Shown here: in pieces, positions 14,231-27,696 of the stretch
Layout: each line of letters starts with the position of its first letter
Numbering within the stretch: position 1 is the stretch's first letter
Origin: a virus
IMG/VR virus record: IMGVR_UViG_3300042991_000142
Location: 1 to 27,696 of that record
DNA length: 27,696 bases
Reading direction: 5' to 3' (one strand)
The notes under the pieces: model-generated
Seen by the model: the letters and a program-made list of their open reading frames with translations, nothing else
Databases searched by the model: none
What the model was told of the DNA's origin: nothing
Position numbers and translations under genes: made by a program

Positions 14231-14434
14231 TCAAACCGGGTCCGATGGAATCGGCAGCTCGATGCCGTGTGCCTTGAGCGCCGCCAGCAGCTCGGCCTCG
14301 GTGTTGTAGGCGTCGAGCGAATCCTGGCCGGTCGTGATCTCCGAGCCTGCATCAGCGAAGCCGTAATGGTGCGCGCCGCCATCGCTGTGCGCGTGCCACC
14401 AGAGATCGGTCGGAGCGATGATGGTTCGGCTCAT
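14231..14434 (-). CDS. small hypothetical protein
   Basis: A 67-residue protein (MSRTIIAPTDLWWHAHSDGG), Trp/His-rich at the start and with a helix near the end (TEAELLAALKAHGIELP). The ATG overlaps the stop of the LRR protein in an ATGA, with GGAGG 6 bases upstream. The coupling suggests a partner or chaperone of the adhesin upstream, in the manner of small tail-fibre assembly proteins; this is inference. Confidence 0.55.
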   Translation of the reverse strand: MSRTIIAPTDLWWHAHSDGGAHHYGFADAGSEITTGQDSLDAYNTEAELLAALKAHGIELPIPSDPV

Positions 14435-16044
14435 ACCCCGCCTCCGTCAACGATCGTCCAGCCCTTGCCGCCGCCGCCAATCGAAGTTGTCAGATAGGTC
14501 CGCGCCGCGCCGGCCGTGGCTATGTCGTAATTGGCGGTCCCGCCGTGGAAGCTCACGCTGTTGTTTACGGCGCCAGCGGCGAGGTCGATCAGCAAGGCCG
14601 ACCATGCCGCCGTGGCGATCTTGGTCCCGTTGAAAGCGTTGGTCCCGACGCTCATCTTCCGCATGTTGAGCAGCGGGAAGGCGTAGCCGTTGAGGTCGAC
14701 GCAATTCCTCCAGGCCGAATTGAAATTGGTCACATCCTTGGTATCGAGCGCCGGGAACGAAGTCAGGCCAGAGCAGTTGAGCCAGCTCTGATCCATCGCC
14801 ACCAGCGTCGGCCCGAAGGTGATCAGGCCGAACGATACCAGACCGGTGCATCCCGACCATGTGACGATGAAGGTCGTTGCCTTGGGGAACGCCATCGCCG
14901 GGAACGAAGTCAGGCCGACGCAGTCGCGCCAAGCGGAATGGAAATTGGCGCCCTCTGCGAAATTGAGAAGCGGGAACGATGTCAGCGCGGCGCAGCCCTG
15001 CCACGCGCCCTGGAAGCTCGTCCCCTTGCTCACATCGAGAACGGGCATCGACTGCAAGACCGTGCAGCCGTTGCAGACGAAATTGAAGTTGGTTCCATTC
15101 GACCAGTTGAGCGTCGAAGGGATCGAGGTCAGGCTGCTGCAGGCGTTGAATAGGCTGTTGAACTCGACGCCGCCGCTCATGTCGAGATGCGGCACAGAGG
15201 TCAGGCCATAGCAACGGTAGAACATCGACCACCACGACCGCACGCCGCCGGTCTGCGCGTTGGCAGAATCGATCGCGGTGATCTGCATGTTGGCGCAACC
15301 GGCGAAGGCGTAGTAGAACGATTCCCACACCACGCCGCCCCACGCCTTGATCTCCAGCACCTTGAGCTTGTCGCCGCCATCGTTGAAGACCAAGGTCGGG
15401 AAGCCCGAGCCTGATGGGCCGGTCGGGGTGATCGTCACATCATAGACGCCCGCCACCGGATAGATGTGGAGGATGCTCGGGAAGCCCGCGCTGGCGTTGG
15501 TGATGCCTTCGACCGTACCATCGCCCCAATCCACCATGAAGTTGTACACGAAGGACGCGGACGGGCTGAGAGGCAGGATGAAGGTCGCGGCCCCAGGCGT
15601 CACCTGCTCGGTGTTGATCCGCAGGACGAAGGGGAGCGGGCCAGACGCGGCGGCGGTCGCAGACGAGAACGACAGCGAGAACATCTCGGCGCCGTTGTAT
15701 TCGCCGTTGCGCTCCAGCGTGGTCAGCAGATAGAATCCCTGGGCGATCACATCCCGCGGCTCGGTGATCACGCGGACCTCGACCAGCCCGCCATTCATCG
15801 CCGCGAGCATCAGGAAGCCGAACACGGACACCGGATCGGGATTGTCGCGCACCACGCCCGAGCAGACGATCTCGCCCGAGCGGATGCCGAACGCCGACAG
15901 CTCGCGCCATGGGACCACGCCCTTCTCGGTCGTGTCCACCTGCTCGTTGTTGATGGTGGCGCCGGACGATCGCTCGCCTGGCACATCGTACCAAGTCCCG
16001 GCTATCAGGACTTGAACCTTGAAGTCCCTGCCGGAACTCTCCAT
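14431..16044 (-). CDS. tail-tube-like domain fused to PKD-like domain and BspA-type leucine-rich repeats
   Basis: A 537-residue composite protein. Residues 5-132 are a paralogue of the tail tube protein: ATINNEQVDTTEKGVVPWRE and LERNGEYNGAEMFSLSFSSA align with TINNEQVDVTDKGDVPWRQ and ERNGEYNGAEQYSLSLSSA in the gene at 11173-11751, without the carbohydrate-binding-like insert. Residues 140-208 are PKD-like (VDWGDGTVEG, then YPVAGVYDVTITPTG). Residues about 246-475 hold roughly nine repeats of about 24 residues with a conserved Cys and LTS-P pattern (GCAALTSFPLL, DCVGLTSFPAM, NCSGLTSFPAL), like BspA/DUF285 leucine-rich repeats used for adhesion. The end (KGWTIVDGG) is also typical of such proteins. 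Probably a receptor-binding virion subunit. Confidence 0.8.
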   Translation of the reverse strand: MESSGRDFKVQVLIAGTWYDVPGERSSGATINNEQVDTTEKGVVPWRELSAFGIRSGEIVCSGVVRDNPDPVSVFGFLMLAAMNGGLVEVRVITEPRDVIAQGFYLLTTLERNGEYNGAEMFSLSFSSATAAASGPLPFVLRINTEQVTPGAATFILPLSPSASFVYNFMVDWGDGTVEGITNASAGFPSILHIYPVAGVYDVTITPTGPSGSGFPTLVFNDGGDKLKVLEIKAWGGVVWESFYYAFAGCANMQITAIDSANAQTGGVRSWWSMFYRCYGLTSVPHLDMSGGVEFNSLFNACSSLTSIPSTLNWSNGTNFNFVCNGCTVLQSMPVLDVSKGTSFQGAWQGCAALTSFPLLNFAEGANFHSAWRDCVGLTSFPAMAFPKATTFIVTWSGCTGLVSFGLITFGPTLVAMDQSWLNCSGLTSFPALDTKDVTNFNSAWRNCVDLNGYAFPLLNMRKMSVGTNAFNGTKIATAAWSALLIDLAAGAVNNSVSFHGGTANYDIATAGAARTYLTTSIGGGGKGWTIVDGGGV

Positions 16045-24195: not shown

Positions 24196-26211
24196 TCAGA
24201 GCGTCCGAAGGCGCGGCTCGCCCTGGCTGCCAAGCATTAGCTCGGTTAATGCCCACACCATAGCGTCCATGCGATCCGGCGACCGTTTCGCCGTGGCCGG
24301 GTCAAAGCTTGTGCATTGATCCTCAAGCGCCGCGAATGTCCCGACATGGTGAACCCGGCCCTGTTCATAGAGCGCGGCGATCGGCTCGGCCCTGATGATC
24401 TTCCCGCGGCTGGCATGAACCGCTGAGTATGCCACATGTGGGTCAACGGTTCTGATCGTCAGTTCCACTAAGTCGCCGCCGTTGTTGACCTCGGCAATAA
24501 TCCGATCGGCGCCGTTGTCTTTGTACCAGCCGACAGACGCCTTCGCCCATTCAAGCGCCGCCATCACGCCCGACAGGTCTGCGAGGATGTAGCCGTGGCC
24601 GTCTTCTCCAAGACCAGCGCACACGATCCCGGTTTCATCGCTGTCGGGGTTGCTGGTCACGGCCGGGTCGATCGCCACGACAACGCGCCGCAGGGACGGG
24701 GCGACGCGGACGCGGTTCCGTTCGATAACCTTTGGCGACCATAGAGCGCCGGGGTTTTCGTCCAGAATTTCGGCGTTGATTTCCTGCCGGCCTATGCGCG
24801 TGCCCTCGTACCGTGACAGGATGACATTCAGGAATGAATCCGCCACATTGCCGGCGTTGTCGTAGGTGCTGCCGCCGGATACAACGCAATCGCTGCGGCC
24901 GAAGATTTCGCGCACCAGCTTTGTCGGCCGCGGCGTTGTCGTGATGATGCCGCGAGGCTTCGAGCCGAGGCGAAAGCCGAACATCAGGTTGTCCCATGCG
25001 TCGCGGTCGAACCGCCAGGCGGCGAGTTCATCGGCCCAAAAGCAGTTGTGGACCAGCACGCCGTTGGCGAAATATTCATGGCATCCGTCTACCGTCAGGT
25101 TGTAGACCGTTTGATTTCCAGCGTCCTCCCAGGTTGACACAACGCTGGCTACAGAAATATCCACGCCTGCTGACGAACCATGCTCCGCACACATTGCAGA
25201 CCCGCTTGACCTTTCGCTTTTGTTCAGCGATTTTGTATTGGCACGACTTGCAGACACCTTTGAAGTTTCCCCTATAGCGCACGGACTCGCCGCATGTTCT
25301 GCATGTCGTTTTGTGTTGCTTTGGTGGATGCAATGCAATGTGGTCCGCTCTTGATAAGAGCCGCAGATTGAGCAATGTGTTGTTTGCTTTGTCCCCGTCA
25401 ATGTGGCGGATGTGCGATCCCTTTGGAATATCCCCGTTGGCTTCCTTCCAGACTTCTCGGTGTTGGTATAGTTTACGGCATCGGTAATATCCGACGATAT
25501 ATCCAGCCTCGTTTGTTTTCCAACGCACACCAGATCCCTGACGGTCAATTCCCCCAGTTGTTTCCATCCCTTTGATGTCATCACCGGATGGTCGTTTGTT
25601 CCTGTTAGCTCCACGCCGTTCGACAGCCGAACTGTTCCGACTCTGCATGTTCTGTTCCTTGCGTCGATGACCGGCCGCAAACCTTGGCGCGTCTGCGCCA
25701 TGTCTCCGACCACTACATCACGCAATATCGTCTGCCCACGATTAGTCAATATGGTCGTCTGCCCAATGAAGCACGAATGTTGCGGGCCGCGCAGGAGGTC
25801 CGGTTCATCGGCCGAGAAGCACGAAGCAACCGCCCCGCTCTTGAATGTTACCCGGCGCTTCGACGGCTCATAGAGCGGCCGTTCATCATCGGGGAAGATC
25901 CGAAGCAGGCCGCTTTCGCCTTCGACCATCACATCGCGCACATCGCCGGCGGTTCGTCCGACAAGCGCGATGCGCTCTTGCGGATTGCGCGCCCGATCGC
26001 GCACCCATTCCGCGCCGGTGCGTGTCTTGCCCCAGCCGCGGCCCGCCTTGACCATCCAGAGGTTCCAGTCGCCAGGCGGCGCCATCTGTTCAGGCCGCGC
26101 CCATATGCTCCAGGTCCACACAAGGAGGTTCGCCGGGACGCCGTTCAGGATCCAGCGCCGTTCCGATGGCGTGGCGTCTGCTATGAGTTCAGCCAGGGAC
26201 GGCTGGCCCAT
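24196..26211 (-). CDS. terL: terminase large subunit interrupted by an intein
   Basis: A 671-residue precursor that would become 428 residues after splicing. The ATG at 26211 has GGAGG 6 bases upstream and overlaps the end of terS by 23 bases. The ATPase part has Walker A at 57-63 (GRGWGKT), Walker B split by the intein (ADE at 393-395) and a TTTPRP coupling motif at 424-429. The nuclease part has aspartate D515 (VVAIDPAV), E574 (IIAEVNNGG) and D646/D649 (SPDRMDAMVW). It pumps DNA into the head and cuts it. The intein occupies C147 to N389; the extein joined as RGPQHS plus CFWADELAAW is a normal terminase sequence. Confidence 0.92.
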   Translation of the reverse strand: MGQPSLAELIADATPSERRWILNGVPANLLVWTWSIWARPEQMAPPGDWNLWMVKAGRGWGKTRTGAEWVRDRARNPQERIALVGRTAGDVRDVMVEGESGLLRIFPDDERPLYEPSKRRVTFKSGAVASCFSADEPDLLRGPQHSCFIGQTTILTNRGQTILRDVVVGDMAQTRQGLRPVIDARNRTCRVGTVRLSNGVELTGTNDHPVMTSKGWKQLGELTVRDLVCVGKQTRLDISSDITDAVNYTNTEKSGRKPTGIFQRDRTSATLTGTKQTTHCSICGSYQERTTLHCIHQSNTKRHAEHAASPCAIGETSKVSASRANTKSLNKSERSSGSAMCAEHGSSAGVDISVASVVSTWEDAGNQTVYNLTVDGCHEYFANGVLVHNCFWADELAAWRFDRDAWDNLMFGFRLGSKPRGIITTTPRPTKLVREIFGRSDCVVSGGSTYDNAGNVADSFLNVILSRYEGTRIGRQEINAEILDENPGALWSPKVIERNRVRVAPSLRRVVVAIDPAVTSNPDSDETGIVCAGLGEDGHGYILADLSGVMAALEWAKASVGWYKDNGADRIIAEVNNGGDLVELTIRTVDPHVAYSAVHASRGKIIRAEPIAALYEQGRVHHVGTFAALEDQCTSFDPATAKRSPDRMDAMVWALTELMLGSQGEPRLRTL
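25076..25648 (-). CDS. HNH homing endonuclease nested out of frame within the intein
   Basis: A 190-codon frame lying wholly inside the intein and shifted -1 relative to it. Its HNH core is clear: H63 (LYQHREVWKEANGDIPKG), H82-I-D84-G-D86 and N89, N90, N94 (HIRHIDGDKANNTLLNLRLL), close to the HNH_3 type of phage nucleases. Two four-cysteine zinc motifs follow: CRTC (116-119) with CKSC (133-136), and CNVC (151-154) with CSQRC (166-170). The start at 25648 has AAGGAA 6 bases upstream; Met28 (25567-25565) is an alternative nearer the domain. The enzyme should cut intein-less terL and drive homing; a role in packaging is also possible, since HNH proteins often sit beside terminases. Confidence 0.85.
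   Translation of the reverse strand: MQSRNSSAVERRGANRNKRPSGDDIKGMETTGGIDRQGSGVRWKTNEAGYIVGYYRCRKLYQHREVWKEANGDIPKGSHIRHIDGDKANNTLLNLRLLSRADHIALHPPKQHKTTCRTCGESVRYRGNFKGVCKSCQYKIAEQKRKVKRVCNVCGAWFVSRRGYFCSQRCVNLGGRWKSNGLQPDGRRMP
25646..25660 (-). promoter_or_regulatory. internal ribosome-binding site for the nested HNH gene
   Basis: Within the intein codons for Ala-Arg-Asn-Arg-Thr-Cys the DNA reads AAGGAACAGAACATG: an AAGGAA Shine-Dalgarno, six-base spacer and the first ATG of the HNH frame. This is as good as the sites of neighbouring genes and supports independent translation. No slippery heptamer was found between 25717, where the HNH frame opens, and the HNH start. Confidence 0.6.
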
Positions 26212-26701
26212 TGCCGGCCTCCGGTGGCGCCGCCGGCGCCTGCGGTTCCGCTGCCTGTCCCGGAGTGCCTTTCGTGGCCCGCTTCTTCCGCATGTCGGCA
26301 AGCCGCTTAAACCTGGCCTCAATCATGGCGCGCAGGCGGTCGGCGTTGTCATCGTTCAGCTTTCCATCCTCGAAGACGATTCCGGTTGTTTCCTTCCATC
26401 CACCCTGGCACTTGAGGTAGAAACATTGCGAGCCGAAATGCGGCCGGACAACCCATTCCTTCGTTGCCGGGTCGCGCTCCCCGACCGCCTGGTTGTAAAC
26501 CATCGCGGCAACATTCTTGATCGACTGCGCTTTCGCTTCGTTGAAATCCGCGGCGAGCCATCGCCGCAGGCTGGCCTCATCAACGCCGGTCAGCACGGCC
26601 GCCTGCCGGAAGTTCAGGCCGGACATGCCACACTCGCGCACCCTGCGCCGGAGGTCTGGCGTAATGTCGGCTCGCTTCCTGATGCGTAGCGGCTCGGCCA
26701 T
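26189..26701 (-). CDS. terS: terminase small subunit
   Basis: A 170-residue protein directly upstream of terL, which it overlaps by 23 bases. An N-terminal helix-turn-helix (FRQAAVLTGVDEASLRRWL, about residues 31-49) would bind the packaging start site. A central part (FYLKCQGGWKETTGIVF) and a helix rich in Arg/Lys follow, then a Pro/Ala-rich tail that may contact TerL. This matches Nu1-like small subunits that recognise phage DNA and load the large subunit. The assignment rests on position and the HTH. Confidence 0.7.
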   Translation of the reverse strand: MAEPLRIRKRADITPDLRRRVRECGMSGLNFRQAAVLTGVDEASLRRWLAADFNEAKAQSIKNVAAMVYNQAVGERDPATKEWVVRPHFGSQCFYLKCQGGWKETTGIVFEDGKLNDDNADRLRAMIEARFKRLADMRKKRATKGTPGQAAEPQAPAAPPEAGNGPAVPG

Positions 26702-26705
26702 GGCC

Positions 26706-27696
26706 CTACTCTAAGCCGCCGGTTCCGACCGTCATATTGTTTTCCTTGGCGAACTTCGTCCAGCGCCGCCGGACAACATCGCAAAAGCGCGGCGAGATTT
26801 CCATCGTGCGGCAGACCCGGCCGGACGCTGCCGCGGCAATGAGGGTGGACCCGCTGCCGGCGAACGGCTCGACAACAATCCCGCCTTTCGGCAGGCTGGA
26901 AAGCATGCACCGCTTCATCATTTCCACCGGCTTGGGCGTGGCGTGGCCGTGGCGTTCGTCGCCGGTCACGCGCTCGAACTCCCACACATCGCGCATGATG
27001 TCATGCGCGTTGTCGAAGTAGGCGCGGGCGCCCTGAATCTCGGAAAGCGGCCCGCCCTTCACGGTGTCCCACTCGCGCTTGAGGTCGCGCCACGGCCGCT
27101 CGAAGTGGCCCGGGTACGCCTTCGCCATCGCCTGGTAATGCTTCTCTGGCATCAGCGTGTATTGCGAGCGGGTGAACCAATGCGAGAACATCGCGCACCC
27201 GCAGACCGTCTTTATGTCGGCCGGGCCGATCCCCGCGGCGTCCGCTTGAGCCTGGAAATATCGGCGGGTCGGTTCCCATGTCTCGGGGAAATCGTCGCTG
27301 TTGATGTTGCCCAGGAACTGGTTGCCGATCTGAATGAACAGACACCGCTCCGAGGCTTCCGGGTACTGCGTCAGGCCGGGCGACTTCATGCCGGGGACCG
27401 CTTTCTTGTCCCATACGATTTCGTTCCGCAGCGCCATGACTTCGGAGGCGGCGAGGCCACCTTGATACCAGAGGCGCCAGAGGTCCGGCGCGTTGCCCCA
27501 TATGTAGGCACTCGCGTTGTCGTGGACGAACGGCCGCAAGACCTTCCACCATTTCATCTGGAAGGCGTCAAGGTTCTCCCGGTAAACATTGTCGCCCTCC
27601 ACGCCGTCCGATTCCTTGCCCATGCCGTATGGCGGGTCGGCGTGAATCAGCGCGGCCTTGTCCGATCCCATGAGCGCGAACCAATCCTCGGCGCTG
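26706..27696 (-). CDS. DNA (adenine or cytosine-N4) methyltransferase, 5' end cut by window
   Basis: The frame is still open at the right edge: upstream of the first in-window ATG (27671) it reads SAEDWFAL, so the true start lies outside. The catalytic motif IV is ADPPYGMG and the SAM-binding motif I, VVEPFAGSGSTLIAA, lies near the C-terminus. Motif IV before motif I is the beta-class order of N6-adenine or N4-cytosine methyltransferases. The region between (about 220 residues) would include the target recognition part. No restriction enzyme gene is next to it, so it is probably an orphan that protects phage DNA from host restriction. It ends 4 bases before terS. Confidence 0.88.
   Translation of the reverse strand, partial: SAEDWFALMGSDKAALIHADPPYGMGKESDGVEGDNVYRENLDAFQMKWWKVLRPFVHDNASAYIWGNAPDLWRLWYQGGLAASEVMALRNEIVWDKKAVPGMKSPGLTQYPEASERCLFIQIGNQFLGNINSDDFPETWEPTRRYFQAQADAAGIGPADIKTVCGCAMFSHWFTRSQYTLMPEKHYQAMAKAYPGHFERPWRDLKREWDTVKGGPLSEIQGARAYFDNAHDIMRDVWEFERVTGDERHGHATPKPVEMMKRCMLSSLPKGGIVVEPFAGSGSTLIAAAASGRVCRTMEISPRFCDVVRRRWTKFAKENNMTVGTGGLE

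Follow-up and report, generated by a model that had tools for sequence, protein, structure and literature searches.

A splicing-type intein and an HNH endonuclease gene in two frames of terL

The virus record IMGVR_UViG_3300042991_000142, of 27,696 bases, is referred to here as the window. Its minus strand carries terL, the gene for the terminase large subunit, which houses an intein. Within the intein, in another reading frame of the same strand, lies a gene for an HNH endonuclease. The features of the locus are listed below.

24196-26322, minus: terL open reading frame (ORF), host of the intein; matches Terminase_6N (2.9e-14) and Terminase_6C (9.5e-14)
25045-25773, minus: intein of class 1 type, 243 residues; Intein_splicing 1.3e-13, Hint fold, intein-free relatives
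25507-25773, minus: N-terminal half of the Hint fold, intein residues 1-89 with blocks A and B; pLDDT 80-98 per block of ten
25174-25506, minus: intein residues 90-200, a linker without predicted structure whose coding value lies in the other frame; pLDDT mostly <50, substitutions in relatives mainly at HNH codon position 3
25045-25173, minus: C-terminal half of the Hint fold, intein residues 201-243 with blocks F and G; pLDDT 86-98 per block of ten
25076-25528, minus: nested HNH nuclease gene with probable GTG start, 150 codons plus stop, in the -1 frame relative to terL; HNH_3 7.5e-14, mean pLDDT 93.3, start position common to relatives
25529-25648, minus: upstream extension of the nested ORF to ATG 25648, probably untranslated; relatives share only the start at 25528
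25535-25539, minus: AGGGA, a Shine-Dalgarno (SD)-like site within intein codons ..VRDL.. (a GD motif in relatives, which have GGAGA or GGGGA in the same place)
25403-25408, minus: codons of Arg41-His42 in IRHIDGD, the HNH motif; relatives whose motif is clear have His at position 41, and the pair aligns to Asp-His of I-HmuI
25079-25173, minus: about 31 codons structured in both frames according to both models, encoding the end of the HNH protein (..FCSQRCVNLGGRWK..) and, in the intein, Hint strands close to block F

The terL ORF extends from a TTG to its stop, and the first methionine (MGQPSLAEL) indicates that ATG 26211 is likely the true start. As an earlier note on this DNA had described, the terL frame (frame 0) is uninterrupted through the 243-residue intein (CFIGQTT...VLVHN/C), which as the sole query matches Pfam Intein_splicing with E=1.3e-13. 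All class 1 intein residues are present: Cys1 (CFIGQT..), the TxxH of block B (TGTNDHP), the penultimate His, Asn243 (VLVHN) and Cys+1. The insertion point (..LLRGPQHS/intein/CFWADELAAW) adjoins the TerL Walker B motif. An empty site is present in two relatives without intein, L007 (TerL 77% identical) and L008, whose terL aligns unbroken over this point. The intein differs from a canonical large intein in that no in-frame endonuclease match lies between blocks B and F, where residues 90-200 are disordered. Its GC content is 52% (51% in the HNH part) versus 64% in the exteins and the window, consistent with a recent arrival.

Group I introns often house HNH genes, and the insert might accordingly be removed as RNA, with the terL frame open by chance. 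However, no Rfam intron match up to E=1 was found within 24500-26400, the insert carries the full set of Hint blocks and the Hint fold, and its open intein frame recurs in many loci. On these three grounds we rejected an intron, which we consider exceedingly improbable.

Two predicted folds in the same DNA

In the AlphaFold model of the intein frame (24 sequences), residues 1-89 and 201-243 are ordered, while residues 90-200 stay below a pLDDT of 50 almost throughout. Foldseek places this model closest to the gp41-1 intein, with a target-normalised TM of 0.87, and DnaB inteins also match. The window intein thus has the same Hint fold as the gp41-1 and DnaB mini-inteins (PDB 6QAZ, 4O1R); the target chains have 128-142 residues, whereas the window intein has 243, with a long linker that holds the nested gene.

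The model of the HNH frame (38 sequences) folds throughout, with a mean pLDDT of 93.3. Its best match in the PDB is the HNH homing endonuclease I-HmuI (1U3E), with a probability of 1.0 but an E of only 5.7e-3, and a profile search returned the same chain with E 0.004; the best structural and profile matches are thus weak (E 0.004-0.006). I-HmuI is encoded by an intron, unlike the window nuclease. At its 3' end the overlap runs through structured parts of both proteins, the HNH segment ..FCSQRCVN.. and the Hint strands that precede block F.

Extent and start of the nested gene

The ORF at 25076-25648 matches HNH_3 with E=1.1e-13 and lies wholly within the terL ORF in frame +2 (= -1), which bears out the earlier claim of an HNH gene nested out of frame in a TerL intein. 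That claim had the nuclease start at ATG 25648 with an overlap of 573 bases; the relatives point to another start. In many nested relatives the gene begins about 245 nt into the intein, mostly with ATG, after a GGAGA or GGGGA that also encodes a conserved Gly-Asp in the intein frame; stop positions are conserved as well. This comparison covers relatives whose intein start could be parsed, which excludes L241, L245, L246, L249, L254, L258 and L260 among others. At the equivalent position, 245 nt into the intein, the window has GTG 25528 behind AGGGA.

The 40 residues between ATG 25648 and GTG 25528 have no counterpart in relatives. ATG 25648 has an AAGGA upstream at good spacing but was dropped because the relatives share the 25528 start. 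The nuclease probably starts at GTG 25528 and has 150 residues. The nested gene would then comprise about 450 bases, from after block B to within block F, with blocks A and B outside the overlap. The 150-residue protein (MRWKTNEAGYIVGYY..) aligns end to end with that of survey locus L146 (MLRWRQNKQGYFVAYS..).

Distribution of the nested layout

Direct searches of viral contigs and named phages with the window HNH protein returned no relatives; these were obtained from the intein side and by motif scan. The pattern HNCxWADE gave 5 matches, one of them real (L091). For survey 1, viral contigs were scanned for the C-terminal intein motif FANG[VI]LVHN, which yielded at least 80 loci. Inside the intein of 42 loci lies an HNH_3-like ORF in another frame, in every case +2; 40 of these loci are among the 80 listed in survey 1, and the other two, L091 and the window, had been added by hand. 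Since "nested" in survey 1 requires an open host frame, a six-frame control and a second survey picked by HNH were added to remove this bias. Survey 2 comprised 80 viral loci selected by HNH similarity: 58 lie nested (+2) within an intein whose frame is open, 6 are fractured, 5 have only an N-half detected and 11 are free-standing. Nesting holds for all of the 37 loci that resemble the window most closely. The overlap described in the earlier note is thus shared by about 40 of the 80 survey 1 loci listed and by the nested majority of survey 2.

Judged from these sequences, an out-of-frame nested nuclease is common in phage inteins and not a one-off. The survey 1 hosts are mostly terminases, with 24/46 of those scanned matching Terminase_6N and 15/46 Terminase_3 among the matches listed. 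Named phages with this layout are Tetrasphaera phage TJE1, Rhodobacteraceae phage LS06-2018-MD07, Acinetobacter phage Highwayman and gut phage MT838676. In bacterial genomes, the HNH gene is free-standing in 11/11 loci. Scans of genome contigs with the intein pattern gave nothing and a second scan gave only free-standing HNH genes, so no nested copy was seen in prophages.

The out-of-frame position could in principle be an appearance created by two compensating indels in an HNH gene once in frame, since HNH domains fused in frame to inteins exist. However, the six-frame control found no in-frame HNH_3-type HNH, and none beside a broken host frame, among the survey 1 matches listed, and the HNH is in frame with the intein in 0/80 viral loci of survey 2. 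Moreover, the in-frame translation is disordered, and the identical relative frame recurs across many loci. Compensating indels were therefore rejected and deserve almost no weight. In-frame homologues were one of two findings that the earlier note had named as contradicting it. The other was a lack of conservation of the HNH residues, which are kept across the relatives with the sole exception of Arg41 in the window copy.

A further rival is trans-splicing, in which the HNH gene splits terL and the two intein halves work as a split intein. This is likely for some relatives, namely Lactobacillus CL2 (L216), Brochothrix BL3 (L222), Vibrio 1.245.O (L220) and six survey loci, in which an HNH gene or its remnant lies between the N- and C-intein ORFs. 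In the three named phages terL is fractured: the N-intein ends at a stop and is followed by the HNH ORF, in BL3 reduced to a remnant, and by a separate C-intein ORF. In the window, by contrast, one frame spans the entire intein, which leaves trans-splicing there scarcely credible. It is possible that the fractured form in L216, L220 and L222 is an intermediate or end state of the nested form.

Other nucleases occupy inteins out of frame. In survey 1, five further loci among the matches listed (L112, L143, L158, L160, L170) carry another nuclease of about 300 residues in frame +1, with a Pfam match to HNH (PF01844) in four and to DUF559 in L158; these apparently form a second class of independent origin. 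Several of their hosts look like terminases with a DDPxK motif. The six-frame control also showed two antisense ORFs inside inteins among the matches listed. Both encode DUF559/Vsr-like zinc-finger endonucleases and leave the host frame open, one in the intein of a phage Mu-F-like protein (L103, 4112-4966, plus strand) and the other in that of an ADP-ribosyltransferase-domain protein (L151, 10885-11727, plus strand). The L151 host protein has a second intein, there with a DUF559 domain in frame. In the helicase intein of Xanthomonas phage FoX3 (L006, 2111-2866, plus strand), a LAGLIDADG_2 endonuclease gene is nested in another frame; HNH genes are thus not alone in having this layout.

Selection on the two frames

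Codon positions were compared in 11 relatives that form a clade and have inteins 266-270 codons long. In codons 1-75, variation is highest at host position 3 (0.37-0.50 vs 0.20-0.34). In codons 91-225 it is highest at host position 2 (0.35-0.54), which is position 3 of the HNH frame, and in codons 256-270 it is highest again at host position 3 (0.45 vs 0.04 at position 2). This switch along the intein indicates that constraint acts on the intein frame towards either end and on the HNH frame between them. In the window subfamily, the HNH frame varies by 0.39, 0.35 and 0.57 at positions 1, 2 and 3 (71 pairs). The frame-by-frame comparison proposed in the earlier note thus demonstrates purifying selection on the HNH frame of the relatives within the overlap.

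The frame that is free of stops in all nested copies contains 1-12 of them in free-standing relatives. When HNH_3 proteins were recoded, the host frame in its actual arrangement was predicted to have about 3.7 stops and the other same-strand frame about 14.5, so nested HNH_3 genes always lie in the frame that is easier to clear. Stop-free probabilities multiplied across loci are not real p-values, since the loci are related.

Putative translation signals of the nested gene

In loci above 40% GC, SD-like sites precede 14/29 nested starts versus 88/657 control out-of-frame ATGs (p=1.3e-5). Alternatively, the HNH protein might be made as a fusion through programmed -1 ribosomal frameshifting in the terL-intein frame, as suggested by the fact that nested HNH_3 genes are without exception in the -1 frame. 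This choice of frame, however, is explained by stop density. In 25/42 loci, the first ATG of the HNH frame is preceded by a stop at a distance of 0-5 codons, and an X_XXY_YYZ slippery heptamer in host phase occurs before the nested start in 0/42; both count against frameshifting, as do the conserved start position and SD. We thus rejected frameshifting as very unlikely.

A probable mobile intein of two overlapping genes

We then propose a model for the window locus. Very probably, it is a mobile intein in which two genes overlap, a splicing intein in the terL frame and an independently translated HNH homing nuclease in the -1 frame. In the terL frame, the ribosome would make a single precursor that carries the uninterrupted intein. 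The two Hint halves would pair over the disordered linker and splice the intein out, leaving active terminase. The HNH/zinc-finger endonuclease would be translated separately from GTG 25528, behind the SD in the intein codons. It would cut intein-free terL, and repair would copy the intein in. The layout most likely arose by entry of a free-standing HNH gene, like those that neighbour terL, into the loop of a mini-intein. Free-standing HNH genes of the same family adjoin terminase genes in several phages and are a plausible source of the nested gene. The core of the earlier note, a splicing-type intein and a homing-type nuclease in separate frames that are both under selection, is supported by the codon-position constraint, the folds and the recurrence of the layout.

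Several observations weigh against this model. The window has no close relative (best HNH identity 46%), and its own evidence for selection comes from distant pairs, with 0.48, 0.40 and 0.60 at positions 1, 2 and 3 of the HNH frame against its relatives. With the HNH protein fixed and its codons re-drawn synonymously, the probability that the window intein frame is stop-free is 0.02-0.03, with 2.8-2.9 stops expected, or 0.003 with uniform codons; the chance of about 0.1% given in the earlier note was thus too low, and for this one locus the stop argument has modest force. The survey loci include near-duplicates and are not phylogenetically independent. In AT-rich loci, an SD-like site precedes 0/13 nested starts; some of these phages may infect hosts that do not rely on SD. 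Finally, the HNH catalytic motif is not fully intact in the window, where the first of two adjacent His is Arg41.

The earlier description of a complete HNH nuclease with two zinc motifs therefore holds for the zinc motifs, both C4 (C76/C79/C93/C96 and C111/C114/C126/C130 in the 150-residue form), and not for the HNH motif. Column 41 is His in 120 rows; apart from the window, a row that lacks it is a gap, a misaligned fragment or a divergent free-standing HNH protein. In the profile alignment, Arg41 falls on the Asp of the Asp-His pair of I-HmuI, which we take to be metal ligand and general base. With Arg41 in place of a conserved His, the nuclease of the window copy may be impaired.

The window copy could thus be a relic that has lost nuclease activity, with only the splicing intein still useful, in a family that is mobile. 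The Arg41 substitution fits this, as do the decayed relative L116 and the accepted homing cycle, in which the nuclease is lost after fixation. In L116 (1807-2160), the nested gene is without an HNH core and the intein frame is still open, as in a decayed stage of the cycle. On the other side, the window ORF is otherwise intact, including all eight zinc Cys, the other HNH motif residues, the start and the SD. One transition (CAC to CGC) suffices for His to Arg, so any decay would be recent, and Arg41 may reflect either such a loss or an error in the sequence. We regard a relic as a substantial though less than even possibility. It is compatible with the two-gene architecture and concerns only the present activity of the window copy.

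Relation to known systems

Inteins are described either as a single polypeptide that unites splicing and endonuclease domains, or as mini-inteins from which the endonuclease was lost. Dassa and colleagues reportedly described fractured genes in 2009, where a free-standing endonuclease gene separates the two halves of a split intein. Some relatives found here have this form, with an endonuclease gene between the N- and C-intein halves. In fractured genes the host gene is broken and splices in trans, whereas the window has one open frame.

In mycobacteriophages, TerL is the main intein host, and its inteins splice and some cut intein-free terL (mBio 2016, PMC5050341). In the passages considered, that paper treats the endonuclease as belonging to the intein and makes no mention of an out-of-frame gene.

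The closest published case is the ShiLan domain and the Pacc40 gp60 insertion, in which an out-of-frame HNH-type endonuclease lies in a stop-free insertion of a phage DNA methylase (Genes 2025, PMC11855218). The ShiLan insertion lacks any splicing domain and is therefore thought to be retained in the protein; its endonuclease has a GTG start and no detectable SD, and homing was inferred (PMC11855218). The window resembles it in that an endonuclease of HNH type, read in another frame than the phage gene around it, lies in a stop-free insertion and is inferred to home. In the window, however, the nuclease is surrounded by a complete intein, an SD-like site is present, and the host is terL, not a methylase. 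The same paper cites a 2025 preprint on non-canonical actinophage inteins, whose title and citation there suggest overlapping reading frames. To judge by these, the preprint may overlap with the present finding and is the main risk to its novelty. Literature searches of incomplete coverage turned up no paper on an out-of-frame endonuclease inside an intein. The earlier note had known of no such arrangement; the layout proves widespread, and with ShiLan an out-of-frame HNH insertion was published in 2025.

The survey is of more interest than the single window locus. On balance, we favour the view that inteins with overlapping genes form a major class, largely undescribed so far. In phages, heterologous endonucleases (HNH_3, HNH, DUF559/Vsr-like, LAGLIDADG) would have settled repeatedly in the loops of mini-inteins, in another frame or even antisense, so that splicing and homing are kept as two genes translated independently from the same DNA, and this would be the rule for HNH_3 in phage inteins. 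Should the survey hold true, many phage inteins annotated as endonuclease-free would hold a complete nuclease gene in another frame. The scoring of intein mobility would change, long disordered intein linkers would be explained, and nuclease dosage would be uncoupled from terminase dosage. The loci offer many repeats of one kind of overlap between genes; free-standing relatives are available for comparison and both frames show clear selection, which puts the origin of gene overlap within reach of a direct test.

Other genes of the window

An N6_N4 DNA methylase gene (26706-27695, E 1.7e-25) adjoins the terminase genes. A large ORF at 14431-16044 has a C-terminal part that resembles short leucine-rich (BspA-like) repeats and an N-terminus that appears to be of phage tail type.
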